37,259 nt of DNA from a virus: positions 1-37,259 of the IMG/VR virus record IMGVR_UViG_3300037200_000153. The stretch is one strand, 5' to 3'. Positions 17,674-36,204 of this stretch are shown piece by piece. The notes beneath the pieces are model-generated. The model was given only the letters and a program-made list of their open reading frames with translations. It was not told where the DNA came from and searched no databases. A program made the position numbers and the translations under genes. Within the stretch, counting starts at the first letter, position 1, and the number at the start of each line of letters is the position of its first letter.

Positions 17674-18033
17674 ATGGACCTCATATCGCCAACAGATGTT
17701 TATAATATCATAAAGCAAGCTGACAGAACGATACAGCTTGTTCATGTGACTGATGGCGCTTATGTACCTGGCACAGGTAAAACTCAGACTACATCAACTT
17801 ACAATTTGTTGGGATTAATTATTAATTCTGTTGACATGATGGCTTCAGACGATAGGATCGTTGAAGATGGCAAGCGTCGGTGTATTATCCAAGCATTAAA
17901 TATTCCCAAGGTCCCCCTGAAAAAGGATTTTATAATTGACCCCAACAATAACCTTCAGTATCAAATAACGGATGTTCATCCCATCTACTGCGGAACAAGC
18001 GTATTGTATTACCAATTAGATATCCAAAGCTAA
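17674..18033 (+). CDS. Head-tail stopper/closure-like protein
   Basis: 119 residues on the plus strand, opposite to the surrounding structural genes. The sequence (DLISPTDVYNIIKQADRTIQ, KKDFIIDPNNNLQYQITDV) has the short beta-barrel character of head-closure or stopper proteins (lambda gpFII / SPP1 gp16 type). It is followed, with a 1-base overlap, by the tail completion gene, the usual partner. The stopper plugs the portal-adaptor channel and offers the tail docking surface. The family call rests on size, composition and neighbours. Confidence 0.55.
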   Translation: MDLISPTDVYNIIKQADRTIQLVHVTDGAYVPGTGKTQTTSTYNLLGLIINSVDMMASDDRIVEDGKRRCIIQALNIPKVPLKKDFIIDPNNNLQYQITDVHPIYCGTSVLYYQLDIQS

Positions 18034-18575
18034 TGGCGAATGAGAAGTTTTTACAGGCAATCGAAGCCTACATAGATGAAACAGAAATGAAGATGGATAC
18101 ATTTTTACGATTCTTCTGTTCAGGACTTCAGCGTGAGATTATGCGTCGTAACCCTGTGCTGACTGGATTCTCAAGAGCTTCATGGTACACATCGGTTGAT
18201 AGAAGCGCCCCAGGTCCTGAGGTTGGAATGGTGGATAACCCCCATTATAAGCAAAAGTTCCCAGGAGGTGGAATAGATTACCGCAAGCAAGTTCCGGATG
18301 CCAAGGCTGCCAAAGGTCAATCCCAACGGCAAACCTACAATGAGCGCAAGAAAATCAGGGCAGGGAAAATTGTTTATATCATGAATAATTGTGTTTACAT
18401 CAGGGTGTTGGAATATGAGTCAAAACATCAAGGTTTTGTGAGAGACGCTGTTTCCTCCGCCGCTCGGATTGGACAGGAAGCCCTAGCAAAATGTACCAAT
18501 ATGAATAAATCTCAGCTTAACAGTTATGTTATCCCTACAGAGTTTGATCCCGCCACATTGCCAGATGGGGAGTAG
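18033..18575 (+). CDS. Tail completion protein, gpZ/HK97 gp10-like
   Basis: 180 residues. The N-terminal half (FLRFFCSGLQREIMRRNPVL, TGFSRASWYTSVDRSAP) matches the pattern of tail completion / minor tail Z proteins, in which a 'P..TG..R.SW' motif follows an amphipathic helix. The middle contains IVYIMNNCVYIRVLEYESKH, the conserved 'i.N...Ya..lE.G' element of the same family in a diverged form. It lies between stopper and tail terminator, the canonical position. It should act at the head-tail junction. Confidence 0.75.
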   Translation: MANEKFLQAIEAYIDETEMKMDTFLRFFCSGLQREIMRRNPVLTGFSRASWYTSVDRSAPGPEVGMVDNPHYKQKFPGGGIDYRKQVPDAKAAKGQSQRQTYNERKKIRAGKIVYIMNNCVYIRVLEYESKHQGFVRDAVSSAARIGQEALAKCTNMNKSQLNSYVIPTEFDPATLPDGE

Positions 18576-18577
18576 CC

Positions 18578-18973
18578 ATGTCCTACGCTGCTATTCGCAA
18601 CGCTCTTGAGATTCAGCTTAACACTTTAAGCGGCGCTCCTGTGATAGTCTGGGAGAATGATGATTACACCCGGACGGTTGGGACGCCTTATATTCAAGCT
18701 GGATTCCATCCGGTGATAACAGAACCGTCAGCCCTGGGGTCATCAGCCCTCACCTATTATAGTGGAAACCTGTTGGTTAATTTATATTACCCATTAAACC
18801 AAGGCCCTCAGGCTGCCGACGCTATCGCTGATCAGATTGTGGGAAGCCTGTTTAAATGGGGGACCACCTTAACAGGCGGTATTATTATCCTAGAGTCCGG
18901 GAGGGTTGAACCGCTCATCAGCGCTGAGTGGTATATGATCCCTGTTACAGTTCAATGGTACTGCTACTTATGA
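18578..18973 (+). CDS. Tail terminator protein, gpU/DUF4128-like, first copy
   Basis: 131 residues. It begins MSYAAIRNALEIQLNTLSGA and contains the motifs GTPYIQAGFHP, YSGNLLVNLYYPLNQGPQAA and DQIVGSLFKWGT, typical of DUF4128-type tail terminators that form a hexameric ring closing the tube at the head-proximal end. The C-terminus WYMIPVTVQWYCYL is the last strand. A near-duplicate follows with an ATGA overlap. Confidence 0.78.
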   Translation: MSYAAIRNALEIQLNTLSGAPVIVWENDDYTRTVGTPYIQAGFHPVITEPSALGSSALTYYSGNLLVNLYYPLNQGPQAADAIADQIVGSLFKWGTTLTGGIIILESGRVEPLISAEWYMIPVTVQWYCYL

Positions 18974-19395
18974 GTTACACGCTTATCAGAAATGCTTTAG
19001 AATTGCATCTAAGCACAATCGTATCAGCTCCCATCATTGTGTGGGAAAACGAAGATTATGATAGCAGCTCAGGGACACCTTACATTCATGCTCAATTGCG
19101 ACCTTTGGTTTGTAAGCCTGAGAGCTTAGGCCAATTGGCACTCACTCAATACGAGGGGGGTTTTCAGATTGATCTTAATTACCCATTAAATCAGGGCCCC
19201 CAGAGTGCCGACGTTATCGCCGATCAAATTGTAGGGAGTTTATTTAAATGGGGGACTATCCTAACAACCGACACCTGCCTTATCCGGGTACTCCGCTCAG
19301 AACGCTCAGGTCCGGTATTTAATGACACATGGTACAGGGTTCCAATCAGTGTGCAGTGGTACGCCTATCTAAGCAGTACCGATCCTAGCCCCTAG
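18970..19395 (+). CDS. Tail terminator protein, gpU/DUF4128-like, second copy
   Basis: I choose the ATG at 18970, which overlaps the stop of the first copy (ATGA) and aligns with its start (MSYTLIRNALELHLSTI); an upstream in-frame ATG at 18928 lies inside the first copy. 141 residues. It is clearly paralogous: IVWEN-DY, GTPYI-A, YPLNQGPQ-AD, IADQIVGSLFKWGT and VQWY-YL are shared. It has a slightly longer C-terminus. Its 3' end overlaps the convergent Rossmann-fold gene by 11 bases with no terminator visible. Two terminators could form two rings or a mixed ring. Confidence 0.75.
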   Translation: MSYTLIRNALELHLSTIVSAPIIVWENEDYDSSSGTPYIHAQLRPLVCKPESLGQLALTQYEGGFQIDLNYPLNQGPQSADVIADQIVGSLFKWGTILTTDTCLIRVLRSERSGPVFNDTWYRVPISVQWYAYLSSTDPSP

Positions 19396-20059
19396 ATTGA
19401 TTATGTGATACCTTTTTATTACGGCTACGCTTAAAGTCTTGCTGATCCTCATATAGAGATTCTGGCTCGACAAACACAAAGTTACGGATGGCACTTTTAA
19501 GATTACAATTCACAACCAACATATCCCTCAAGAAACATTGAGCCGCAATAATTTCTGCTTGCTTTACCCATCTGATATAATCACCGTTGGCAAGATGCCC
19601 GTCAAACCAGCAATATCCATTGTGCCAGTGATAGTGGGCCGGTGATAGGTTCATATCGAATCCGATGAGGATTATGACCTTGGATTGTTTTAGATAGGCT
19701 AGATTCATCGCTCCGTAGCCACTGTTGCCACAGGTAATAGTATCAGGGCTGTCTGACATCTTACCTTGCCATGAGGCCAATTTTAAATAGTTTACCCCTG
19801 GGATAAAGTCTGTGTAATTTGGTGGAACGGCTAACCACCTCTCCCCTGGGAATTGCTGAATTTCATGGCGTCGATTTTTAATCCAAGGACCGTCCATCGA
19901 AAATAAAATGTCGCATGGCGTATGGAATGCGGAGTCATTAACCCCGATCTTTAAGCCGTTGATACGGTTAAAGTCAACGCTACTAGCCGAAGAGCCTCCA
20001 CCAATAATAATGACCTTTTCTGATGGCCAATCTTGGGTGGTGGAGGTTTCTGTAAACAT
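19385..20059 (-). CDS. Rossmann-fold DUF115/GT42-like protein
   Basis: 224 residues. The N-terminal EKVIIIGGGSSASSVDFNRI is a Gly-rich nucleotide-binding loop, followed by IGVNDSAFHTPCDILFSMDG and later CGNSGYGAMNLAYLKQSKVI and LIGFDMNLS. This pattern is that of a family of phage proteins related to DUF115 (MptE/Maf) and sialyltransferase-like Rossmann folds. Activity is unproven; a glycosyltransferase or nucleotide-sugar role is possible. It follows the adaptor gene in the late operon and converges on the inverted block. Its Shine-Dalgarno AAGGA is part of a small palindrome (20061-20073) that could partly sequester it. Confidence 0.6.
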   Translation of the reverse strand: MFTETSTTQDWPSEKVIIIGGGSSASSVDFNRINGLKIGVNDSAFHTPCDILFSMDGPWIKNRRHEIQQFPGERWLAVPPNYTDFIPGVNYLKLASWQGKMSDSPDTITCGNSGYGAMNLAYLKQSKVIILIGFDMNLSPAHYHWHNGYCWFDGHLANGDYIRWVKQAEIIAAQCFLRDMLVVNCNLKSAIRNFVFVEPESLYEDQQDFKRSRNKKVSHNQSRG

Positions 20060-21368: not shown

Positions 21369-22343
21369 TTACGCCGTAATGGTGTTGAAGAAGTAACCCA
21401 AATCAGCAGAAATTAATTTCTGTGAGTAGGCAATCTCGCCTTCAACCCGGTCTGACCGCAACCATTCCATTCTGAATTTAGAAATTCGAGTCCCTTGAGC
21501 CGAAGCACCAAGATATCCAGTCCAGCTAAACGTATAACCTGCGGCTGGTGTCATCAATCCGGGAGCTGGGGGAACGTAAGCCAGCAGGGCTGACTTACCA
21601 ATAATCCAAGATTCGGAATCAGTAGCACCCTCAATACCCGTGTTTTGGATACCAGCGGCAACTTCGATTCGATCTAGTTCAAGCAACGCAGCGACAGCTT
21701 CACGAGTAACCATTGCTGGTTTACCAACACCGGATTGACCATATTTTACCCGGTCAACGATATCGGGGTGATCAGCCAGGATGGACCAAACAGGACGGCC
21801 CATAACCAACACGTTAGGCCGGTAACCCGTTAATTGCTCAACGGTATCCATCCCTAAACGAATAGCGGTAATCGGATCACTATTGGTATAATCTGACCAC
21901 TGGCTTGATCCTGAGCCTGAGATACCATTCGTCCAAAGGCCTGTCGTCATGAAGTTGGTTGCAAACGAAACTTCTCGTTGAATCAATAATAATTGAGTAA
22001 CATAGATGGTAGCCTCTCTGTCAGGGTCAAGCACAGCATCACTGTTATCCCGAATCTGATCAGGAATATCTTTATGGTACGCAATGACATCGCAGAGGTA
22101 ACTAGAGTTGTTGGTTAGTCTATAACCTCCGCCGGCAGATTCAGTTCCGGGCGCCCGTTTCTGTGCCTGGTTTCTGTTGAAGTCCCCACGGTTATAAGCG
22201 TAGAAGACATCAGATTGTTTTGGCACAGGAACATTGGCAAATACTCTTTGCGCAACGAATTTAGTTTCGTCTTGAATATAAGCAATACTTATATTCGACA
22301 AAGGTTGGTTTACATGGACATCTGAAACTGTGGGGTTTGGCAT
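21369..22343 (-). CDS. Major capsid protein
   Basis: 324 residues, of the lambda gpE-like HK97-fold class. Indicators are a start PTVSDVHVNQPLSNISIAYI, then VFANVPVPKQSDVFYAYNRG, a repeated use of DREATIYVTQLLLIQREVSF in the spine-helix region, and a C-terminal TRISKFRMEWLRSDRVEGEI. It follows a decoration-type gene and scaffold. A purine-rich AGAGAGAGAGTAGAGAGAA leader precedes the ATG, which suggests very strong translation. Confidence 0.9.
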   Translation of the reverse strand: MPNPTVSDVHVNQPLSNISIAYIQDETKFVAQRVFANVPVPKQSDVFYAYNRGDFNRNQAQKRAPGTESAGGGYRLTNNSSYLCDVIAYHKDIPDQIRDNSDAVLDPDREATIYVTQLLLIQREVSFATNFMTTGLWTNGISGSGSSQWSDYTNSDPITAIRLGMDTVEQLTGYRPNVLVMGRPVWSILADHPDIVDRVKYGQSGVGKPAMVTREAVAALLELDRIEVAAGIQNTGIEGATDSESWIIGKSALLAYVPPAPGLMTPAAGYTFSWTGYLGASAQGTRISKFRMEWLRSDRVEGEIAYSQKLISADLGYFFNTITA

Positions 22344-22758: not shown

Positions 22759-23784
22759 CTATGGCTGTGCTGACTTAAGTGTTTCTTTGGTGTATTGCGC
22801 ATAAGCAGCTTTCCCTTCAGGGGTTTGCATTACCGCATCATAAGCTTTGGTGAATGGAATGCTGTGCTTTTCAGCATAAGCTTTAGCCATTACATCAAGT
22901 TGATCGGCACCCTTAGAAATAACCACAGTGCCATGACCAATCTCAGACATTGATTTTTTCAAGGCTTCATTTTGAGCCGCCATGCTTTTCAGCATTACTT
23001 CTTGCTGCTCTTTAGGCATTGAGTATACAGATTTTAAAATTTGAGCTTTTTCAGCAGAAGTTCCCGGAATGTTAGGAAACTCAGAATCAGCTTGTTTTTC
23101 AAGCCTGGTTAACTCTAAGTGATCATTCAGTTTTTTAATTTCAGATGCCTGTGTTTCAGCTTGTTTTTGTAACACCTCGATAGTGTCATGAGATTTTTTT
23201 AAAGCCTTGGCAACTTCGTCACCGTCCACATCTTCGTCACCGTCCACATCATCGTTACCATCAGTCTTGGCTTTAGGTTTTTTAGCATCAGTTTTGGCTT
23301 TTTTAGCATCAGCTGCAGCTTTGTCAGCATCCCGCTTGGCAATATCTGCTTTTAACGCTTCATTTTCAATTAAAGCCTTTTCTAGTGTTGCTTTGATGTC
23401 TTCAGTTGTCATTCCTAACTCTCCCTTTTCAATATCTGAAATAATTGTATCATTATTTTTGTAGAAACTAACTTTTGCAAATTGATTTGCAGGCGACGGT
23501 ACTAAAGATACTTCTCTAACCGACATATCCTTAATACGACTACGAGACTTTTTAGCTTGTATCGGGGAATTAACATGAACCGAACTTAAGCTAGGATCAA
23601 TCTTATGAATAAACTCTTTTGCATTATGTGCAAATTGAGCCATTTCTCTGACATCGGCATCTTTGCTTTTTAATGACTCGGTAATAAAATCAGGTTTTAT
23701 CGTCCCATCTTCATTCAGTCCGTCATGCTTAGATGCGTAATCATGAAATTTTCCGGGGTGTTTTATATCAATATTTTTTGCCAT
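22759..23784 (-). CDS. Scaffold protein with protease-derived N-terminal segment
   Basis: 341 residues. Residues 82-110 read RIKDMSVREVSLVPSPANQF and onwards, the C-terminal signature that usually ends XkdF/prohead-type proteases, not a scaffold. Residues 120-260 are Lys/Ala/Glu-rich coiled coil interrupted by an Asp-rich stretch (DDVDGDEDVDGDE). The C-terminal part (~280-341, ADQLDVMAKAYAEKHS, YDAVMQTPEGKAAY) resembles the capsid-interacting end of scaffolds. It probably nucleates procapsid assembly and is cleaved by the protease. Shine-Dalgarno AAGGAG is clear. The N-terminal 80 residues are unassigned. Confidence 0.7.
   Translation of the reverse strand: MAKNIDIKHPGKFHDYASKHDGLNEDGTIKPDFITESLKSKDADVREMAQFAHNAKEFIHKIDPSLSSVHVNSPIQAKKSRSRIKDMSVREVSLVPSPANQFAKVSFYKNNDTIISDIEKGELGMTTEDIKATLEKALIENEALKADIAKRDADKAAADAKKAKTDAKKPKAKTDGNDDVDGDEDVDGDEVAKALKKSHDTIEVLQKQAETQASEIKKLNDHLELTRLEKQADSEFPNIPGTSAEKAQILKSVYSMPKEQQEVMLKSMAAQNEALKKSMSEIGHGTVVISKGADQLDVMAKAYAEKHSIPFTKAYDAVMQTPEGKAAYAQYTKETLKSAQP
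23215..23250 (-). repeat. 18-bp tandem repeat in scaffold gene
   Basis: Two perfect 18-base units (23215-23232 and 23233-23250) and a partial third one encode the acidic DVDGDE repeat. It is an in-frame low-complexity linker. Confidence 0.85.
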
Positions 23785-23947
23785 TTCTAAGCTCCTTATA
23801 GAAGTTTATGTAAGGGTTTGGAGAATAAATGATATCCCATACTGATTTAACAGGCGGTAATACTACCGGCCTATGTTGCAATTCATTATGGATTTGTTGG
23901 ACTGGGGTTAATGTTAATATCACAGCCAATAGGGGGTTGATTATCAT
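23768..23947 (-). CDS. Small overlapping ORF between protease and scaffold, 59 aa
   Basis: The ATG at 23947 overlaps the protease stop (ATGA) and the frame runs to a TGA inside the scaffold start region, 59 residues. It begins MIINPLLAVILTLTPVQQIH, a short hydrophobic stretch like a signal or weak membrane segment, then VVLPPVKSVWDIIYSPNPYI. It explains an otherwise empty 160-base gap and overlaps the scaffold gene by 17 bases. No family is recognised. Coupling geometry is the best evidence that it is translated. Confidence 0.45.
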   Translation of the reverse strand: MIINPLLAVILTLTPVQQIHNELQHRPVVLPPVKSVWDIIYSPNPYINFYKELRNGKKY

Positions 23948-25113
23948 GCGACAGCCTCCCGAATACCGTCACCGCCGATTGAGAAGGCTTTATAAACACC
24001 TTTTTTAACCATATCCCAAACCGTTGAATCGTTGACCTTATATCCGATATACCAGCCGACTTGCCCCAGATCAATCGCAAGAGCATCTTGCAATTGTTTG
24101 GTAAAAACCACAGACTCAACAATCTCGCCTGTTTGCTTACCCCAGTGCAGCTCATGACCTTCACGGTATTGCCTCATAAAGTCATGGGCGGCCTTAACCA
24201 ACATATCCTCATCATCAATAACATCGCCTTGAAGATCCACTACAGGCTTACCGTCTTTTTCTATAACTGAGGCATAGCCATAGACCATTTGTTTTTCTTC
24301 ATTGGACTTTTGTAGGCTAAATTTTAAGACAGGTAAGGGATTATCTAGTTGAACAGTTTTTTTACCCTCTAAGGTTAATGATGACGGTAATGGCTTAACT
24401 TGCTCAGGGTCCAGCATTATTTCAAAATGTGGGATGTCTAATGTAGCGATATCAAAGCTCATCGGGCAATCATAACTCAATGTAATGTGTAGGTTATGAT
24501 CATCAAAGTCCCATGATGCACCTATATTCAACGCTTGCCAAAACTGATCTGCAAGTTTATCATTATTAAAGCATAATGCCAGACATTCTTTGTTCTTACC
24601 TAATCTACGCAAGAAATAATTGCATTGAGGCACGCCGCAATAACTAATACTGCGGGGGGTTAAAATAGTCATATCATTGATTGGTTTATAACCACCAACC
24701 TGCTCTTTTGAATACAAGATTGTGCAATGAAGCTGATCTGCCGGTACGGGGTTTGGGATTTTGAAAGACTGCATCCAGGCTGTTAATAGGTCAGCACTAT
24801 GAGTATTTACAGGACAAGATGAATACATCCCACCGGGGGGCGGGGCGTTTTCTGATCGCTCATCATCATTATCGTTAATCTCAACATCCAACTCCATTGC
24901 TTGAGCCAGCTGTTCTAAGAGGAATATATCACCAGAATTAGATTTGGTATAAACACCGTCCTGGTGGGTATACCCAGCTTTATCTAAGGCATCCCACGCC
25001 GTGATATAGCGTACAGGGGGATAATTAGATCCGCATTCATTAAATGCCTTTCTAAAAATATCACGACCATGTGACGATGGAATTGCAAGCTTAATATTTT
25101 GTGGTAAATCCAT
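23944..25113 (-). CDS. ChaB-like + 2H phosphoesterase + XkdF head protease fusion
   Basis: 389 residues with three segments. Residues 3-57 (IPSSHGRDIFRKAFNECGSN, AWDALDKAGYTHQDGVYTK) match the ChaB domain pattern. Residues 105-240 show two HxT motifs 80 residues apart, LHCTILYS at 128-135 and LHITLSY at 208-214, the active-site hallmark of 2H phosphoesterases, which include RNA 2'-5' ligase/CPDase enzymes and phage Acb1 anti-CBASS nucleases. Residues 262-389 (MVYGYASVIEKDGKPVVDLQ, AIDLGQVGWYIGYKV, KAFSIGGDG) match the XkdF-type prohead protease. It lies between MuF and scaffold, the normal protease position. The leader is AGGAGAGAGTTAATT. The protease call is firm, the 2H call good, and the anti-defence role is an inference. 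Confidence 0.78.
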   Translation of the reverse strand: MDLPQNIKLAIPSSHGRDIFRKAFNECGSNYPPVRYITAWDALDKAGYTHQDGVYTKSNSGDIFLLEQLAQAMELDVEINDNDDERSENAPPPGGMYSSCPVNTHSADLLTAWMQSFKIPNPVPADQLHCTILYSKEQVGGYKPINDMTILTPRSISYCGVPQCNYFLRRLGKNKECLALCFNNDKLADQFWQALNIGASWDFDDHNLHITLSYDCPMSFDIATLDIPHFEIMLDPEQVKPLPSSLTLEGKKTVQLDNPLPVLKFSLQKSNEEKQMVYGYASVIEKDGKPVVDLQGDVIDDEDMLVKAAHDFMRQYREGHELHWGKQTGEIVESVVFTKQLQDALAIDLGQVGWYIGYKVNDSTVWDMVKKGVYKAFSIGGDGIREAVA

Positions 25114-25140: not shown

Positions 25141-26163
25141 TCACGCCTCGTAGTAGACTGCGCACCTACAGTTACAGACGTCAGCGGGGAGGCCTTCAGG
25201 GTCTCCGGGGTACATTAATTCACCCAATCCTGTTTTAAATGGTTGGTTTATAGGATAACCTCCATTGGAGTTAGATAAAAGCTCAGCCTCAACGTGTGAA
25301 TCCCTTACCCTTTCATCATTAGCGGTCATCCAATATTTTCTAACATCCTTTTCATCAACCAAGCCCTCATCAATCATATCCTTCCACACCTGTTGGTTGG
25401 ACATATTAAGCATTCTGATACTATCTGTTCTGGCAATCGTAGTAGCTCGGTAGCGTAAATATCGCTCTCGGTAACGTTGAACCATCTTGTCAATTGTCGC
25501 CTGAGGAATAGCGTTTTGATTCTGAAAAGCGCTAATAACACTTCTGTCAAACCGACCATCTGCTAAAGCCCTGCTTAAAATTTCATTCTTATCCGTAAGG
25601 GTGAGCTTGGGGTTAGAAAGCATATTTTTATAATTCAGAACGGCTCGCTCTTGAAACGGAGTCAATCCAAACGAATCTTTTAATTCGGTGGTGATAGTCC
25701 TGGCTGCCACCGCCGGGTTCTGGCCCCCTGAGATTTGATTGGTAATAATACCCCTGACATTGGCTTGTAGCTCATTAGAAAGCTTGGCTTTAAAGTTGGT
25801 GACATAATCTTGAAAAGCATCCATTAATTTGGGGTTGGCGACGTCAAACCGAACCTGAACATGTAAACCGTTAGAAAGGGTGGGCACTGAAGGGACGAGA
25901 GTAGCGTTGAATTTACCACCGAGTACATAAATATCCCCCAATTTTTCCCCGTACTCATCGAAGGCGCTATTGACGTTATAGGGCGATACCATTCCCAAGG
26001 CAAGATCTATGCGTCCTTCTGAGATATAGGCGGCCATTTGATCAAAATCTAATTCGGTTTTCAGCTTCTTGATTCCACTCAGAAAGGCACGTGTTAGTTG
26101 TGCGTCAAACTTGTTTAAGAGTTGGCGTATCTGTTCAATCTGAATGGGGGTAAGCTTAGCCAT
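25141..26163 (-). CDS. Minor head protein, Mu gpF / SPP1 gp7-like
   Basis: 340 residues. The C-terminal domain has the Phage_Mu_F signature: RATTIARTDSIRMLNMS at 239-255, MTANDERVRDSH at 279-290, and MYPGDP ... VCNCRCAVYYEA at the end. The Cys and His residues of this domain probably bind metal. Such proteins enter the procapsid with the portal and may be ejected. It is located directly after the portal, as expected. The N-terminal 230 residues are helical. Confidence 0.87.
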   Translation of the reverse strand: MAKLTPIQIEQIRQLLNKFDAQLTRAFLSGIKKLKTELDFDQMAAYISEGRIDLALGMVSPYNVNSAFDEYGEKLGDIYVLGGKFNATLVPSVPTLSNGLHVQVRFDVANPKLMDAFQDYVTNFKAKLSNELQANVRGIITNQISGGQNPAVAARTITTELKDSFGLTPFQERAVLNYKNMLSNPKLTLTDKNEILSRALADGRFDRSVISAFQNQNAIPQATIDKMVQRYRERYLRYRATTIARTDSIRMLNMSNQQVWKDMIDEGLVDEKDVRKYWMTANDERVRDSHVEAELLSNSNGGYPINQPFKTGLGELMYPGDPEGLPADVCNCRCAVYYEA

Positions 26164-26211: not shown

Positions 26212-27627
26212 TTAAAGGGTCACAGGGCCGTCATCCCCTACTGAGTCTGGCGTGACCTGGTAAGGGGACATATTTTCACCTGTGGGAATATCTGCGGCAT
26301 CCAACAAATAATCAATAGCCTCTGTATTATCCCCAAAAATGATGCCTGCTGAGGCCAATTGCTGGACAAAGAGACCCAACTGCGTCAAGTCTGGAGGCGC
26401 TATCTGGCCCGGCTTGAGCTTTGGCATTGTTTCAGGAGAGAATCCGTTTAGCCTCCAAAGGGTTGGGATTAAACCCCGGTTGATAACAGCCGCAATATTA
26501 TTAAGATAGCCTTCTATCGAGCGCAAGAATAAATCTGTTTTTGACTTAGACAGGGCGAACGATCCTCTAGAGTTGGACCCTAGAATCAAGAAGTCAGCCA
26601 ACACTGTCCTGGCAATGGCAGAGCTGTAACGGTTGATAATAACGTTTGTATCAATATGGCGGCTCCCTTGTGCAGATATTAATTTAATATCCACCATCGG
26701 AATATTGGTTGGCTTCCCCATCCCATCCATATAAGTGTTGGATGGGATGATAAGGGCGGCTTGTTCGTTAAATTTCATATCACGGGCAACCTTTTGGTAA
26801 GCTGCATAAACCGCTTGCTGCTGTGGATCTTGGCTATTCATAATCTCAGATGGTAATGTAATAATTGGCATCCCGGCCAACTCCCGCTCAATGGCGATAG
26901 ACTCGACAATCTGTAGGTTCTTCTTATAGTAATAACTAACATAAGCATTCCTGAGAAGGCTGTACCCCTCAGGGTTGTTTTTCCGGGACTTAGTACGGAA
27001 AAGTAAAGCCTTGTCAATCGGGATAAATCGGGTTACACCTCCCTGAGGAGGCAACTGCCAGAAACCCAACACGTCGCCCGCATCTGACATTTCCCATCGG
27101 ATTAAGGTTTCTTGCGCTCTGGGGGCTAGTTTTCTGATGCCTATCTTACCATCTGAGAATCGACTGACATTCTCTAAGTTGGGGCAGTATAGACCGTCCC
27201 TGCGTTTATAAACGGTCTCGAAATAGGCAAACCCAAATGTTAAATAGGTCAATACCTCGCAAATGAAATCCTCAAAGGTGTGATCCATATCCGCCAGGCA
27301 TTCTTCAAAAAACTGAGCGCCCTTTTTTGCTTCGGATGCTGAGCCTGATTTTGATGGTTCTACATTCCAGTCGGCGGCTCTGAGCATGCTTTCAATCGCT
27401 GTTAGAACAGCCCCGATAACATCATCGTTATCGCACATTTCTCTAAATATCCGGCGACCTCTTATTCCTTGAAGCTCAGTTAAAAATTCTTCGTAAACAT
27501 ACCCGGAGGCGACTCTGACACCCGACACCCCCAGTTCATCAGAGGGCTTAACCTGGCCTGGTGTTGGAAGCTGGACGATGGTTGCATCGTCTTGTCTAAC
27601 ACTTCTAAAAAAATCAAAAACTCCCAT
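26212..27627 (-). CDS. Portal protein, DUF935 / Mu gp29-like
   Basis: 471 residues, close to the usual length of DUF935 portals. Typical elements are MCDNDDVIGAVLTAIESMLR, AADWNVEP, FEDFICEVLTYLTFGFAYFE, and a later FALSKSKTDLFLRSIEGYLN. The portal forms the dodecameric DNA channel at one capsid vertex and binds terminase. It is flanked by large terminase and MuF, the usual order. The C-terminus is short and flexible. Confidence 0.9.
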   Translation of the reverse strand: MGVFDFFRSVRQDDATIVQLPTPGQVKPSDELGVSGVRVASGYVYEEFLTELQGIRGRRIFREMCDNDDVIGAVLTAIESMLRAADWNVEPSKSGSASEAKKGAQFFEECLADMDHTFEDFICEVLTYLTFGFAYFETVYKRRDGLYCPNLENVSRFSDGKIGIRKLAPRAQETLIRWEMSDAGDVLGFWQLPPQGGVTRFIPIDKALLFRTKSRKNNPEGYSLLRNAYVSYYYKKNLQIVESIAIERELAGMPIITLPSEIMNSQDPQQQAVYAAYQKVARDMKFNEQAALIIPSNTYMDGMGKPTNIPMVDIKLISAQGSRHIDTNVIINRYSSAIARTVLADFLILGSNSRGSFALSKSKTDLFLRSIEGYLNNIAAVINRGLIPTLWRLNGFSPETMPKLKPGQIAPPDLTQLGLFVQQLASAGIIFGDNTEAIDYLLDAADIPTGENMSPYQVTPDSVGDDGPVTL

Positions 27628-27642
27628 AATAAAAATTATAAC

Positions 27643-29097
27643 CTATCGGTAAGGATTGTGGGTGATACCTTGATTGTGACGAAATGATTCAAATGAACTT
27701 ATAAATGCCGGAGTTGTTTGTACGTTTACAAATGGATCGTTGGCTGAGAATGCCGCACAAATATTGGTGGGAGTGGTTATTGCGTCGTTAAGGTTTAAGC
27801 GACGGGAGAGAGCCTGGGACATGGCGTCTGTGTCGTCGTCATGCCTTACGGCGGGGAAAGCGCACCATTGGTCTATTGTATCTCTAGTCCATTCTTGATT
27901 AGCTTTAACGAATACTTTTCCAGCCTCAAAAAGAGTTGAAACAAAATTAACACGCTCTATTTTAGAGGATGCTTCATTCTTTCCTGGCATCATTGCAATT
28001 ACTGGCATTATTGATGCGGCTTTAAAGTCCTGTATAAGCTGCTGACCACTGCTTTTATCTTCTATTAGTACCTCTCTGGCTGGATATAAGGCATATAAAG
28101 ATTCAACTTTTTGTTTAAGAATTGGATACGGTACCTTCCCCCGCCAACTGAAAGTAAGATAATACCCATTGGCGCAACAGGCCCATAGTTGAGCGACACT
28201 GAAATCTGACTCCTGTTTTTCCTTGATAGCACTATCTATAGACCACCAATAATATTTAACTTCTGGAAGTTCCGTGTAGAGCTGTATCCACTCTTTTTTA
28301 ATAATTCCACCCTGTTCAGAGATGAGCCAATTTCCCGACAGTAGGCGCTCCCGCTCAATCAGAGGTAAGGCTAAAAGCTTTGCCCTATAACCTGGATCTT
28401 TTTCCATAAGTATCTTATTGTCAGCCAGCATGGCACTTATGAAAGTAAAGCTTATTGGCGGTATATCAGGGTGCGCTTCTCTAGCTTCAGCCTCACTGTC
28501 AAACCATATAAAATCTTCATTTAATACAACAAACCAACGAATAACTCCTGATCGCTCTGAAATAGGCAGTCCTGTATCAGGGTCGATCCACCAATCAATA
28601 ATCTCCTTAACCCAAGATCCACTATCAGGATTGCAGGTTGCTCGCATATAGGGCTTAACGCCACAGGTTGATCGATTTCTGGACATCAGATACATAAACT
28701 GCTTTTTGGTAAAATGTACCAGCTCATCAAAAATTATGAGGGGGTATTCTCCCCCTTGGTGATCGTAGCAGTTACTCTCATGCTCGAGGTGCTGGAACTT
28801 AATTTTTGCACCAGATGGGAACCTCCAGAGAAATTTATGCTCAATAGCCTTTGCCCCAAGCTGTGGATAGATAGATGATGAGGCGTCCCATAAGCCACCA
28901 GGGGCTGAAATCATAGTGCCTACCCTACGAAACACAATTGCAGAGAAGTTCGGATTCGCTACATTCCTTAAACACTCTAGCAGAATGGCGAAAGTTTTGC
29001 CACTACCTGCTGATCCCCCATATAGCACGATATTTGCCGAATTCTCTAAAAATTTCTGTTGTGGGCCTTGTTGAGCAACTATATCATTAAATGGCAT
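27643..29097 (-). CDS. terL: Terminase large subunit
   Basis: 484 residues. ATPase: Walker A GGSAGSGKT at 27-35 and Walker B LIIFDE at 120-125. Nuclease (RNase H-like): Asp288 in SIDSAIK, Glu346/Asp347 in LIEDKSSGQQL and Asp421-424 in HDDDTDAMSQAL form the expected acidic cluster. The motor packages DNA into the procapsid and cuts it. Both active sites look intact. It precedes the portal gene with a 15-base gap. Packaging mode cannot be told from sequence alone. Confidence 0.93.
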   Translation of the reverse strand: MPFNDIVAQQGPQQKFLENSANIVLYGGSAGSGKTFAILLECLRNVANPNFSAIVFRRVGTMISAPGGLWDASSSIYPQLGAKAIEHKFLWRFPSGAKIKFQHLEHESNCYDHQGGEYPLIIFDELVHFTKKQFMYLMSRNRSTCGVKPYMRATCNPDSGSWVKEIIDWWIDPDTGLPISERSGVIRWFVVLNEDFIWFDSEAEAREAHPDIPPISFTFISAMLADNKILMEKDPGYRAKLLALPLIERERLLSGNWLISEQGGIIKKEWIQLYTELPEVKYYWWSIDSAIKEKQESDFSVAQLWACCANGYYLTFSWRGKVPYPILKQKVESLYALYPAREVLIEDKSSGQQLIQDFKAASIMPVIAMMPGKNEASSKIERVNFVSTLFEAGKVFVKANQEWTRDTIDQWCAFPAVRHDDDTDAMSQALSRRLNLNDAITTPTNICAAFSANDPFVNVQTTPAFISSFESFRHNQGITHNPYR

Positions 29098-29621: not shown

Positions 29622-31214
29622 TTATAATCTCCATCGGCCATTAATAATATAAATCAAGGTTCTTTTGCCATTAGGGTAGATAATGCAATGACAATGCATC
29701 CATGAGCTGTAACCTTGATTATATTCCAGTTTAAGCAAACTTGAAGTGCCGACACGATACGCCCCCTTTTCAATCTTGGGCGAATGCCCATGACCCGTCA
29801 CCGATTTACGACCGCTGCGGGCAAACGCCTGGACGCTCCCCCTAGCCCCATTTATCCCAATATCCCCGTGTTGGGATAAGTCGATATCAAACAATTCAAC
29901 CTTATCGTCACGCTTATGAAAGATCGTATTATTGGGATTAACAATACGAGGCATCACATATAATGCAAGCGGATTGGGGATTGCTGCACCTGAAGGGGTC
30001 ATGGTAGTATTACTCAATACCTCAACCATTAACTTGTGATAAATAAGTGCATTTTCAGGATCTTGTTTAGGGTCTGCGGATTGGAGCCATTTCGTTAATG
30101 CTAAATTATGATTACTCTCAATATAATGATAAGTTGCCGTTGAGTCAGACCAGATTTTGTTATGGCAAGCCACCAGTCTATCCAACTCCCGCTGGACATT
30201 ATGAGCCCCAGCTTGATGCTTGGCGTAACGAACCAACTGATTATCCTTATGGTGATGATTCGCAGAATAAAAATCCAGAGCGTCGTGAATATAGTGATGC
30301 TCCGGGCGGCAGATTGACGTTATTGATGTAGGAGATTCCCATGTGGCATCCCGTACCTGTTGGTCCATGGAGTCGATATGACTATCACCGTACACTATTC
30401 CTGAAGCCCGGTGGCCAGAATCGGGAGGCTGTGCTGGTTGATATAACGTGTCGAGATCGTAAAATGAACCGTCTTGTGTGGGACTTAACTGCCGCACATA
30501 AAACTCCCCCTGATCCCCCAACTCAACCAACAATGCCCCTAATGAATGATGGAACTTAGCCAATGCACCCTGTTTTGAAGATGAATAGTTCTCTACTGAG
30601 ACGGAGCCTGTGGTCAATAACATTCGTGGATGCTCGTGGTGCGGTGTGGGAATCACCTCCATTGCAACCTGATGGTGCCCAAATATTGCTGACTTGTTAC
30701 CAGCCACGGGACCGATACCTGAAAGTGGGTTCAATGCGGTTGCGGCAATGTTAAAACCCCCCATCAGCATAAGTCGGGGACAGAGCTCAATATCAGAATT
30801 AACATAGAATTGATGAAGCTCAGAAGGCCATTGAACCGTGTATTGATCCGTAGGGCAATACGCATTGACATTTTTATAGCGAATGGGCAACACGACCAAC
30901 TGACACTGGTTGTGTTGGCAGTAACTCAGGAGGCTATTTAGAAACGCCGTGTGTACCTGCGTATTATTTTGAGCGCAGGTTATTACAAAGCGCTGGGAGT
31001 GTGGGTTGAGATGGTTGTTTGGCGGTTCATCTGTAGGGGTTGGTATTAAAAATTTCTCAGGTTTATTAAACCAGTCCCACACGGTCGTTTTAGCAACTCC
31101 AAGGGCTTTGGCGGCCTTAAGAAGATTATTATCAGCATCTTTAGCAGTTTGGATTATTTGCTCTGTTGTAAACTTATTCCTGATAGACCCCTTCCGAAAC
31201 GTGTTTCCACTCAT
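29622..31214 (-). CDS. HTH + calcineurin-like metallophosphoesterase, 530 aa
   Basis: 530 residues. Residues 16-50 (TEQIIQTAKDADNNLLKAAK, VAKTTVWDWFN) form a helix-turn-helix like that of small terminases and Fis/resolvase-type DNA binders. Residues 273-480 contain the metallophosphoesterase motifs in order: GDSHID (276-281), SNHN (367-370, the NH of GNH[D/E]), HGD (449-451) and GHGHSP (474-479, the GH.H motif). The region 72-260 is unassigned and contains HHEHP and other His-rich stretches. It lies between small and large terminase genes, so it may act on DNA during packaging, host DNA degradation or regulation. Substrate is unknown. Confidence 0.72.
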   Translation of the reverse strand: MSGNTFRKGSIRNKFTTEQIIQTAKDADNNLLKAAKALGVAKTTVWDWFNKPEKFLIPTPTDEPPNNHLNPHSQRFVITCAQNNTQVHTAFLNSLLSYCQHNQCQLVVLPIRYKNVNAYCPTDQYTVQWPSELHQFYVNSDIELCPRLMLMGGFNIAATALNPLSGIGPVAGNKSAIFGHHQVAMEVIPTPHHEHPRMLLTTGSVSVENYSSSKQGALAKFHHSLGALLVELGDQGEFYVRQLSPTQDGSFYDLDTLYQPAQPPDSGHRASGIVYGDSHIDSMDQQVRDATWESPTSITSICRPEHHYIHDALDFYSANHHHKDNQLVRYAKHQAGAHNVQRELDRLVACHNKIWSDSTATYHYIESNHNLALTKWLQSADPKQDPENALIYHKLMVEVLSNTTMTPSGAAIPNPLALYVMPRIVNPNNTIFHKRDDKVELFDIDLSQHGDIGINGARGSVQAFARSGRKSVTGHGHSPKIEKGAYRVGTSSLLKLEYNQGYSSWMHCHCIIYPNGKRTLIYIINGRWRL

Positions 31215-34168: not shown

Positions 34169-34645
34169 ATGAAGATAACACTTGAAGGTAATGATATGGC
34201 TGAAATTTCAGCCATGGTGGAAATGTTTAAAACCAAAACCAGTCCTGAGGCGGCGGTGCCCAAGTTTACCAAGGTTGGGATTTATCGATTCCCAACAGAA
34301 TGGCTTGGGGTTGTGCAGATGTTGGTTGATGATTTCGTCACCTTTACCATGAAAGATTTGGATGTGTTTATTGGGGAGGGGGCAACCGTTGCTCAAAAGA
34401 CTGGGTTGGCAACCTACATTAAAACCCAGTTGAAAGACTCGATTATTGTTGAACAGGGGGCCTTGGTAGGGCGGTCGTATCTATTTACGCCTTACCGGGT
34501 GGAAAATGGGGTTCAGGTTTTGGCTACAGCCAGAATGATACGATCAGCCAACACTGTGCGAAGCGGGGGTGCTAAGACTGTGCGGCTACGCTATGATGAT
34601 AGGGATGGCGATGTTATTTCAGATGCGATGAGGACTGTCAGATGA
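34169..34645 (+). CDS. Hypothetical protein, 158 aa
   Basis: 158 residues. Start preceded by GAAGGAAC. The middle (VGIYRFPTEWLGVVQMLVDD, FVTFTMKDLDVFIGEGATVA) looks like a folded alpha/beta domain, the C-terminus is basic (SANTVRSGGAKTVRLRYDDR). The stop overlaps the ThyX start by 4 bases, so it is co-translated with ThyX. The short internal ATG at 34196 is a less likely start. Family not recognised. Confidence 0.6.
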   Translation: MKITLEGNDMAEISAMVEMFKTKTSPEAAVPKFTKVGIYRFPTEWLGVVQMLVDDFVTFTMKDLDVFIGEGATVAQKTGLATYIKTQLKDSIIVEQGALVGRSYLFTPYRVENGVQVLATARMIRSANTVRSGGAKTVRLRYDDRDGDVISDAMRTVR

Positions 34646-35337
34646 ATGTTGATTATATTGATCACATGGGGACGGATTTGACGGTTGTGAATGCCGCAAG
34701 AGTCTCACTAGCTAAACATCATGAGGTGATGGATGAAAGCGATGTGAGGCTGATTAAACATCTGGCTACACATGATCACTGGAGTCCTTTCAGTCATTGT
34801 CAGGTCCAATTTAGAATAACGGCCCCTCTGTTCGTCGCCAGGCAGTTGTGGAGAAGTCATGTAGGATTGTCGGGTGGGGATTGCGGCTATATGGGGTGGA
34901 ATGAGGTCAGTCGCAGATACGTCGATGAAGAACCTGAATTTTATGTACCGGATGAATGGCGAGGGAGACCACCGGGTTCGATAAAGCAGGGAAGTGGGGA
35001 CGAGGTTATTGTGGATAAAGTTGCCATTAAAGGGTTTGGTCATAAACTCACGCCTCACGAATGGTACGATTTAGCGATAGATAATATGGCAAGTATCTAT
35101 AACGGTCTAATAGGGGTTGGTATCGCCCCTGAGATGGCTAGGATGGTATTACCAGCGAGTGTTGAGACCTCCTGGTATTGGACAGGCTCCCTGGCGGCAT
35201 GGGGGAGGATCTGTAAACTAAGACTCGACCAACACGCCCAAAAGGAAAGTCGGGTAATCGCTGAACGGATAGCTGAGGAGTGTAGGCGATTATTCCCAGT
35301 AAGCTGGGAGGCACTGATAAATGGAAGGCGTAATTGA
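34642..35337 (+). CDS. thyX: Flavin-dependent thymidylate synthase ThyX, variant motif
   Basis: 231 residues. ThyX converts dUMP to dTMP using methylenetetrahydrofolate, FAD and NADPH. Support: IDHMGTDLTVVNAARVSLAK at the N-terminus, HDHWSPFSHCQVQFRI, ARQLW at 66-70, NEVSRRY at 87-93, and SVETSWYWTGSLAAW with QHAQKE near the C-terminus. The usual RHR-type signature is replaced: residues 67-73 are RQLWRSH, and about eight extra residues (SGGDCGYM) precede WNEVSRRY, compared with the phage form in which VGL runs almost directly into NEVSRRY. Catalytic competence is therefore uncertain, though length and other motifs look complete. Confidence 0.88.
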   Translation: MNVDYIDHMGTDLTVVNAARVSLAKHHEVMDESDVRLIKHLATHDHWSPFSHCQVQFRITAPLFVARQLWRSHVGLSGGDCGYMGWNEVSRRYVDEEPEFYVPDEWRGRPPGSIKQGSGDEVIVDKVAIKGFGHKLTPHEWYDLAIDNMASIYNGLIGVGIAPEMARMVLPASVETSWYWTGSLAAWGRICKLRLDQHAQKESRVIAERIAEECRRLFPVSWEALINGRRN

Positions 35338-35625: not shown

Positions 35626-36204
35626 ATGACGCTAGAAACCACACTTGATACTATAGCGGCGTATAAGCCCTGCGAGTCAGGCTGGGATAAACTCGTTGCG
35701 GGAATTGGCGACATTAAACGGAATAAACCGTTTGCGCTGTCAAGGATTATAGAGATAAACGATATTCAAGATACACTTTGGGCGCTGAAACATACGCAGC
35801 CGTTAGAGGTGTTTAGTCGCATTGTGGTCACTTTTGCCTGCGATTGTGCTGAAAGAGTGCTGCCGGTTTATGAAGCGAAATATCCAGAGAATAAAGCACC
35901 TCATGAGGCTATTCGGCAAGCAAGGCTATTTCTAGAACCTGATTTTTATGCAGCCGATGCTGCCGATGCTGCCAATGCTGCCTATGCCGCAGCCGATGCT
36001 GCCAAGGCTGCCTATGCCGCAGCCGATGCTGCCGATGCTGCCAATGCTGCCTATGCCGCCTATGCCGCTGCCTATGCCGCTACCAGGGCTGCCGATGCTA
36101 CCGATGCTGCTGCCTATGCCGCTGCCAAGGCTGCCTATGCCGCAGCCGATGCTGCTGAAATTGAGTGGCAGAAAGCCCGATTAAAGGAGTTGCTAGATGC
36201 CTGA
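35626..36204 (+). CDS. Imm5-like protein with Ala-rich repeat tail, 192 aa
   Basis: 192 residues. Residues 65-108 (VVTFACDCAERVLPVYEAKY, APHEAIRQARLFL) match the pattern of the Imm5-like immunity domain, where a conserved CDCAER-VLP...PREAI-AAR run precedes an Ala-rich helical part. Residues 108-178 are almost pure Ala/Asp/Tyr/Asn repeats (AADAANAAYAAADAAKAAYA), most likely one long helix. The DNA of this part contains exact repeats. Shine-Dalgarno AAGGAGA. Imm5 proteins in bacteria neutralise polymorphic toxins; whether this one does is unknown. Confidence 0.65.
   Translation: MTLETTLDTIAAYKPCESGWDKLVAGIGDIKRNKPFALSRIIEINDIQDTLWALKHTQPLEVFSRIVVTFACDCAERVLPVYEAKYPENKAPHEAIRQARLFLEPDFYAADAADAANAAYAAADAAKAAYAAADAADAANAAYAAYAAAYAATRAADATDAAAYAAAKAAYAAADAAEIEWQKARLKELLDA
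35950..36156 (+). repeat. Ala-codon repeat array
   Basis: Imperfect trinucleotide-phase repeats built of GCTGCC-GAT, GCTGCC-AAT, GCTGCC-TAT units. A 41-base stretch at 35950-35990 recurs exactly at 36019-36059, and a 35-base stretch around 35998 recurs at 36121. Length can vary in frame by slippage. Confidence 0.85.

Follow-up and report, generated by a model that had tools for sequence, protein, structure and literature searches.

A predicted head maturation protease with an embedded Acb1-type domain in an uncultivated phage, and other Acb1 fusions to phage head proteins

Why would a phage build an enzyme that may destroy a bacterial defence signal into the protease that matures its own head? 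The question is raised by a single open reading frame of the window, that is, the whole stretch of 37,259 nucleotides of IMG/VR virus record IMGVR_UViG_3300037200_000153 analysed here. An earlier note, made from the letters of this DNA, had described one chain of 389 residues at 23944-25113 with two HxT motifs, HCT at residues 129-131 and HIT at residues 209-211. The chain was confirmed and could be assigned to the minus strand (25113 to 23944), no strand having been named before, and both motifs stand exactly at those residues of the translated ORF. The frame is open over all 389 residues and is preceded by AGGAG approximately 10 bases 5′ of its ATG; the plus strand of the same interval contains many stops. 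An AlphaFold2 model built from 71 sequences reached a mean pLDDT of 83, with values in the 90s over the greater part of the Acb1 domain; confidence is low in linker residues 61-70, 75-89 and 248-256, which are predicted to be disordered. The gene (23944-25113, minus strand) encodes, in order, a ChaB-like fold (residues 1-59; 24937-25113), a linker (residues 60-94; 24832-24936) that includes the first two of these low-confidence stretches, an Acb1-type 2H phosphoesterase domain (residues 95-243; 24385-24831) and an XkdF head protease domain (residues 267-383; 23965-24315). PADLOC returned no model matching the 389-residue protein.

The middle domain was identified by sequence and by structure. 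The Pfam family Acb1 (PF23474) matches residues 95-243 with an E value of 8.2e-23 (81.2 bits against a curated cut-off of 27). Among solved structures the top sequence match is Acb1 itself (7t26, E 5e-11), followed by the Pam3 portal (8hds), which is matched in its C-terminal part at E 0.018, or 0.011 when the domain alone is used. Superposition of the model on crystal FBB1 Acb1 with VIA-align gave a Z score of 18.2 (1.9 Å over 135/137 residues), against 14.5 for the runner-up family, approximately 11 for LigT, approximately 11 or less for CPDase and approximately 10 for Usb1. The 2H phosphoesterase that had been proposed is thus borne out by the Pfam match and by the fit to crystal Acb1, and the reading can be sharpened, by profile, alignment and superposition, from a generic 2H fold to Acb1 specifically. 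The Pam3 portal, though matched by sequence, was absent among the structural matches listed; perhaps the map does not show its Acb1 domain.

In FBB1 Acb1 the catalytic tetrad consists of H44, T46, H113 and T115, and E141 contacts the adenine (PMC9117128). The first motif of the window protein, HCT (24721-24729, minus strand), supplies H129 and T131, and the second, HIT (24481-24489, minus strand), supplies H209 and T211; these align with the FBB1/T4 tetrad in that order, and E237 (24403-24405, minus strand) aligns with E141. Y97 and F203 are the equivalents of Y12 and F107, the position of W147 reads L246, and W74 was not placed in the alignment. The geometry of the HxT residues in the model rests on the superposition with Acb1. 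The motifs alone are weak evidence, because an HxT/S pair 60-100 residues apart also appears in 6% of shuffles of the window protein, and the pair was dropped as a sole diagnostic. It is the profile and structure matches that carry the identification. When T4 Acb1, portal-Acb1 and solo Acb1 proteins were aligned, the invariant columns included both histidines, the first threonine and the late glutamate. Across the 120 other Acb1 domains that we collected, the first histidine is kept in 119, the first threonine and the second histidine in all 120, the second threonine in 114 (serine in the other 6) and the glutamate equivalent to E141 in 115. Both HxT motifs are retained in nearly all homologues, and the catalytic tetrad in 119/120, the majority of which are fusions. 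The window copy departs from its relatives at two positions: leucine replaces a near-invariant proline preceding the second HxT, and leucine also stands where most Acb1 homologues have the lid tryptophan W147.

The C-terminal domain matches Peptidase_S78_2/XkdF (PF14550) over residues 267-383 (E 2.8e-17, 63.3 bits against a curated cut-off of 24), and its H323 and S378 are invariant in the alignments. A separate model of this part found the T4 gp21 capsid protease as its top VIA-align match (100 residues, 3.7 Å) with a Z score of 7.5, below 8, followed by herpesvirus assembly proteases; the score is moderate and the list coherent. Foldseek alone matched no fold to the XkdF part. The XkdF-type protease of the earlier note is upheld by the above-threshold Pfam match, the conserved histidine and serine and the position of the gene in the head operon. 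At the other end of the chain the sequence signal is weaker. Pfam found no ChaB (PF06150) in the window protein at E≤1, and for this reason the N-terminus is named ChaB-like only; the PDB entry 1sg7 was matched at E 0.24, and a profile of relatives at 8.4 bits. The fold nevertheless lends some support, with residues 1-59 superposing on ChaB 1sg7 at a VIA-align Z score of 7.0 (57 residues, 2.2 Å, 32% identity), and two relatives, L211 and L234, carry a clear ChaB domain in the same place (E 3.5e-13 and 3.1e-8).

The position in the operon is that of a head protease. The minus-strand order runs from the terminase large subunit (27643-29097) through a Mu-type portal protein without an Acb1 domain (26212-27627), a MuF-type head morphogenesis protein (25141-26163; phrog_3517, E 4e-62), the fusion gene, a scaffold-like ORF (22759-23784) and a decoration-type ORF to the major capsid protein (21369-22343; phrog_1005, E 2e-87). 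The fusion gene thereby occupies the usual head-protease slot, between MuF and the scaffold and capsid genes. Its XkdF ORF terminates just past the motif FSIGG. In the scaffold-like ORF, the sequence VREVSLVPSPANQ resembles the C-terminal region of S78 proteases and gives a weak match to positions 126-155, the last part of the S78 profile (E 0.024). In L211, L234 and L186 the next ORF begins with similar stretches. A strand from the next protein may complete the window protease. However, an 'EISxVxxPA' protease strand was found downstream of XkdF ORFs in 13/98 cases, and a general claim of split proteases is therefore not made.

Four plus-strand ORFs (17674-19395) interrupt the otherwise minus-strand head and tail operon, so that the structural genes do not share a single strand. 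A 224-residue ORF without a Pfam match (19385-20059, minus strand) lies on the opposite strand to these preceding ORFs, and a 530-residue ORF, also without a Pfam match, lies near the terminase gene (29622-31214, minus strand). Elsewhere in the window are a ThyX thymidylate synthase (34642-35337, plus strand, E 6e-44) and an alanine-rich repetitive protein matching models of Imm5-like immunity proteins (35626-36204, plus strand, E 4e-8), which is odd for a phage.

Relatives of the whole protein are hard to find. A single-sequence scan of viral contigs recovered no close relative, and a diverse Acb1 alignment was needed to find relatives at all. No record among 50,697 from phages spans 80% of the window protein; annotated phage collections likewise gave no match covering 80% of any head-protease fusion tried, and do contain portal-Acb1 fusions. 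Alignment-based scans yielded 80 Acb1 loci, 80 XkdF loci and 9 genome loci; another viral scan confirmed at least 539 relatives, and the 80 best were used. Genomes proved a poor source of relatives: 385 of them, all from one class, gave only 2 matches above cut-off when searched for the family. The resulting 165 Acb1 loci reduced to 120 non-redundant Acb1 ORFs, 83 of which exceed 230 residues. Pfam partners were counted in the 73 non-redundant Acb1 fusions shorter than 1200 residues; as the set is biased by the query, the counts represent what was found and not frequencies. Portals were the commonest partners (Phage_portal_3 in 35, Portal_Mu in 15, the PF04860 portal in 2), the others including XkdF (5), DUF2213 (3), MuF (3), S78 protease (2) and ChaB (2). 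DUF2213 proteins carry the annotation head maturation protease in RefSeq phages, and Acb1 is joined in all to three head-protease families and several portal families. Larger Acb1 proteins add portal, MuF, ART, NUDIX, LPD38 or nuclease domains.

The domain order of the window protein was found in two IMG/VR contigs, L211 (ChaB 23-80, Acb1 85-225, XkdF 269-384) and L234 (ChaB 9-66, Acb1 70-210, XkdF 222-336). Five further distinct proteins join Acb1 to XkdF. Three have the order Acb1-XkdF (L027, L258 and one protein found as L024, L026 and L186), and in L187 approximately 420 residues separate Acb1 from XkdF. The fifth, L224:2620-5148, is a single chain of 843 residues in which a Mu-type portal is followed by Acb1 and then the XkdF protease. 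A cultured bacterium, Xanthobacter autotrophicus DSM 432 (L178), encodes an Acb1-S78 protease directly before a capsid-type gene; the Pfam assignment was taken from L065, which carries the same protein in IMG/VR. The region before XkdF hosts other enzymes too, L128:2778-5396 being an 873-residue fusion of histidine phosphatase, ChaB and XkdF.

Several Acb1 matches annotated as prohead protease (DSS3P8, ZHS and Rhizobium/Agrobacterium plasmids) were excluded from the fusions because their ORFs span just 138-199 residues. On the Acb1-sized proteins of DSS3P8 (L011:3989-4441) and vB_EpM_ZHS (L012:2116-2715) this label is probably a misannotation. The vB_EpM_ZHS gene sits between terminase and portal, and on the Agrobacterium plasmid pEL101-131 a 168-residue Acb1-matching 'phage prohead protein' (L014:2929-3435) overlaps a gene of the protelomerase family. 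The N-terminal extension of L007 was considered ParB-like, but Pfam did not bear this out and the reading was set aside.

A tree of 121 Acb1 domains placed the window copy in the half that contains the T4-type solo proteins (support 98/96), and the other XkdF fusions alongside those to portals and other virion proteins in the second half (98/96). The XkdF label requires 7 changes on this tree, at least 4 of them gains or losses made necessary by supported branches. From the split and these forced changes it would follow that the fusion of Acb1 to XkdF probably happened more than once, and the ChaB-Acb1-XkdF order possibly arose twice. The window copy is the most divergent of the set, with a branch of 1.86, and this very long branch makes its exact place uncertain.

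What the fused enzyme would do can be judged from its family. T4 Acb1 and nine further homologues cleave 3′3′-cGAMP and cAAA (PMC9117128), and since family members cleave these CBASS signals, we infer that the window domain hydrolyses 3′3′ cyclic di- and trinucleotides of CBASS, of which these two are examples. On balance we favour the reading that the 389-residue protein is a head maturation protease carrying a predicted anti-CBASS nuclease, although the long branch of this copy and its leucines at the near-invariant proline and the lid tryptophan count against it. Such a fusion would tie the production and location of Acb1 to head assembly, a stage that CBASS reportedly senses, so that the signal could be destroyed at the place and time at which head proteins trigger it. 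The flexible linkers would permit the protease to release the Acb1 domain, and part of the fusion protein might be packaged too. The activity of T4 Acb1 begins approximately 15 min into infection, matching the late onset of CBASS (PMC9117128), and, according to a review, the prohead protease of phage Bas13 is reported to interact with a CBASS sensor (PMC12409349, citing Richmond-Buccola et al. 2024). Given this timing and the reported sensing of a prohead protease, an Acb1 tied to the head would be present when head assembly is sensed. That Acb1 occurs on head proteins of many unrelated phages suggests a repeated tactic, one that arms either the particle or the assembly site against CBASS. We put forward more tentatively, as a possibility we would not yet bet on, that Acb1 on head-assembly proteins (head protease, portal, MuF) is a recurrent and convergent counter-defence, in which the trigger would carry its own silencer because the enzyme that destroys the CBASS signal sits on the very proteins whose assembly CBASS senses, and that the particle may also deliver Acb1 to the next cell.

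The recurrent attachment of Acb1 to head proteins and to polyvalent proteins makes both ideas of delivery, release by self-cleavage and packaging with injection, plausible. Head proteases work within the prohead (T4 gp21 and HK97 gp4 are examples). The Acb1 part could accordingly be built into the prohead, released by the protease and ejected with the DNA to act before early genes, and the flexible linkers on either side of the domain are in keeping with this. The same is true of its presence in large polyvalent proteins that also bear ART, MuF, LPD38 or nuclease domains, a kind thought to be injected (PMC5512222). However, CBASS acts late (PMC9117128), which would make early delivery unneeded. 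A late role at the assembly site fits the commonest fusions, those to portals, at least as well as injection does. In tailed phages the portal stays in the particle and is not ejected, and as it is the partner in approximately 50 of the 73 fusions, injection would not be the general reason for them unless the domain is cut off. Packaging and injection is, overall, a somewhat unlikely explanation.

Most of the remaining alternatives concern what the domain acts on, if anything. An Acb1 directed at other signals, either the cAAA of type III CRISPR or the nucleotides of other defences that use cyclic signals, is suggested by the cleavage of cAAA by T4 Acb1, whose authors raised possible action on type III CRISPR (PMC9117128), and by a lid region in the window copy that is unlike most. 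The core specificity residues, however, are those of Acb1, and we regard a different target as improbable. Still less probable is a role on RNA, in which the 2H domain would act on RNA ends (2′,3′-cyclic phosphate) or serve as an RNase, either to repair RNA or to take over the host. The chemistry is common to 2H folds, LigT and Usb1 are among the weaker structural matches, and Iyer et al. preferred an RNase role where 2H domains are joined to MuF or portal (PMC5512222); yet both of those folds fall far below the Acb1 Z score, and the E141 glutamate of Acb1 is retained in nearly all fused proteins. Decay of the domain to a mere head-assembly module might account for the long branch and for the loss of the near-invariant proline and lid tryptophan. 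If the domain served structure alone, some catalytic residues should have gone, whereas this copy retains the four of the tetrad and E237, as do nearly all relatives in every fusion class, so that decay too seems a poor explanation, slightly more so than an RNA role. Finally, a chimera or assembly error fusing two genes, conceivable for an IMG/VR virus record for which no close relative was found, is very hard to reconcile with a single open frame that has a ribosome-binding site and the right slot of the head operon, with the recurrence of the domain order in the independent contigs L211 and L234, and with the Acb1-XkdF order of L024, L027 and L258.

The reading of a head protease that bears a predicted anti-CBASS enzyme can be set beside known systems. 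Acb1 was defined in 2022 and has so far been studied as a free protein. Our survey suggests that, T4-like phages apart, Acb1 occurs mostly as part of head proteins, and that it was acquired more than once by portals, by MuF proteins and by head proteases of three kinds. Should the fused forms act on CBASS signals, they would inform where and when CBASS is triggered, and the survey yields defined, testable proteins, including the capsid-gene neighbour L178 of Xanthobacter autotrophicus DSM 432. The open-licence papers searched contained no account of Acb1 joined to a head protease. The closest precedent is that of Iyer et al. (2017), who described 2H domains in polyvalent proteins and in fusions with MuF and portal, and who considered that these might degrade defence nucleotides but preferred a role as RNases (PMC5512222). 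The idea of a 2H enzyme on a virion protein, possibly degrading defence signals, is shared with the present case; their work is earlier than Acb1 and does not mention XkdF.

With the Acb1 proteins of T4 (57B) and FBB1, the window protein has in common the fold, the HxT/HxT tetrad and the equivalents of E141, Y12 and F107. However, T4 Acb1 is a free protein of 152 residues, whereas the window Acb1 lies between the two other domains of a head protease and has leucine at the position aligned with the lid tryptophan W147. The portal-Acb1 proteins (Phage_portal_3/DUF1073 and Portal_Mu, as in Pseudomonas phage psageB2 and cyanophage Pam3) likewise carry Acb1 on a head protein of a late operon, but there the partner is the portal, Acb1 is C-terminal, and the Acb1 domains fall in the other half of the tree. 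XkdF (Peptidase_S78_2) proteases share the C-terminal 117 residues, the catalytic histidine and serine and the operon position with the window protein; most, however, are without Acb1 and contain other modules in their N-terminal part, ChaB, Hva1_TUDOR, DUF5824 and a histidine phosphatase being examples.
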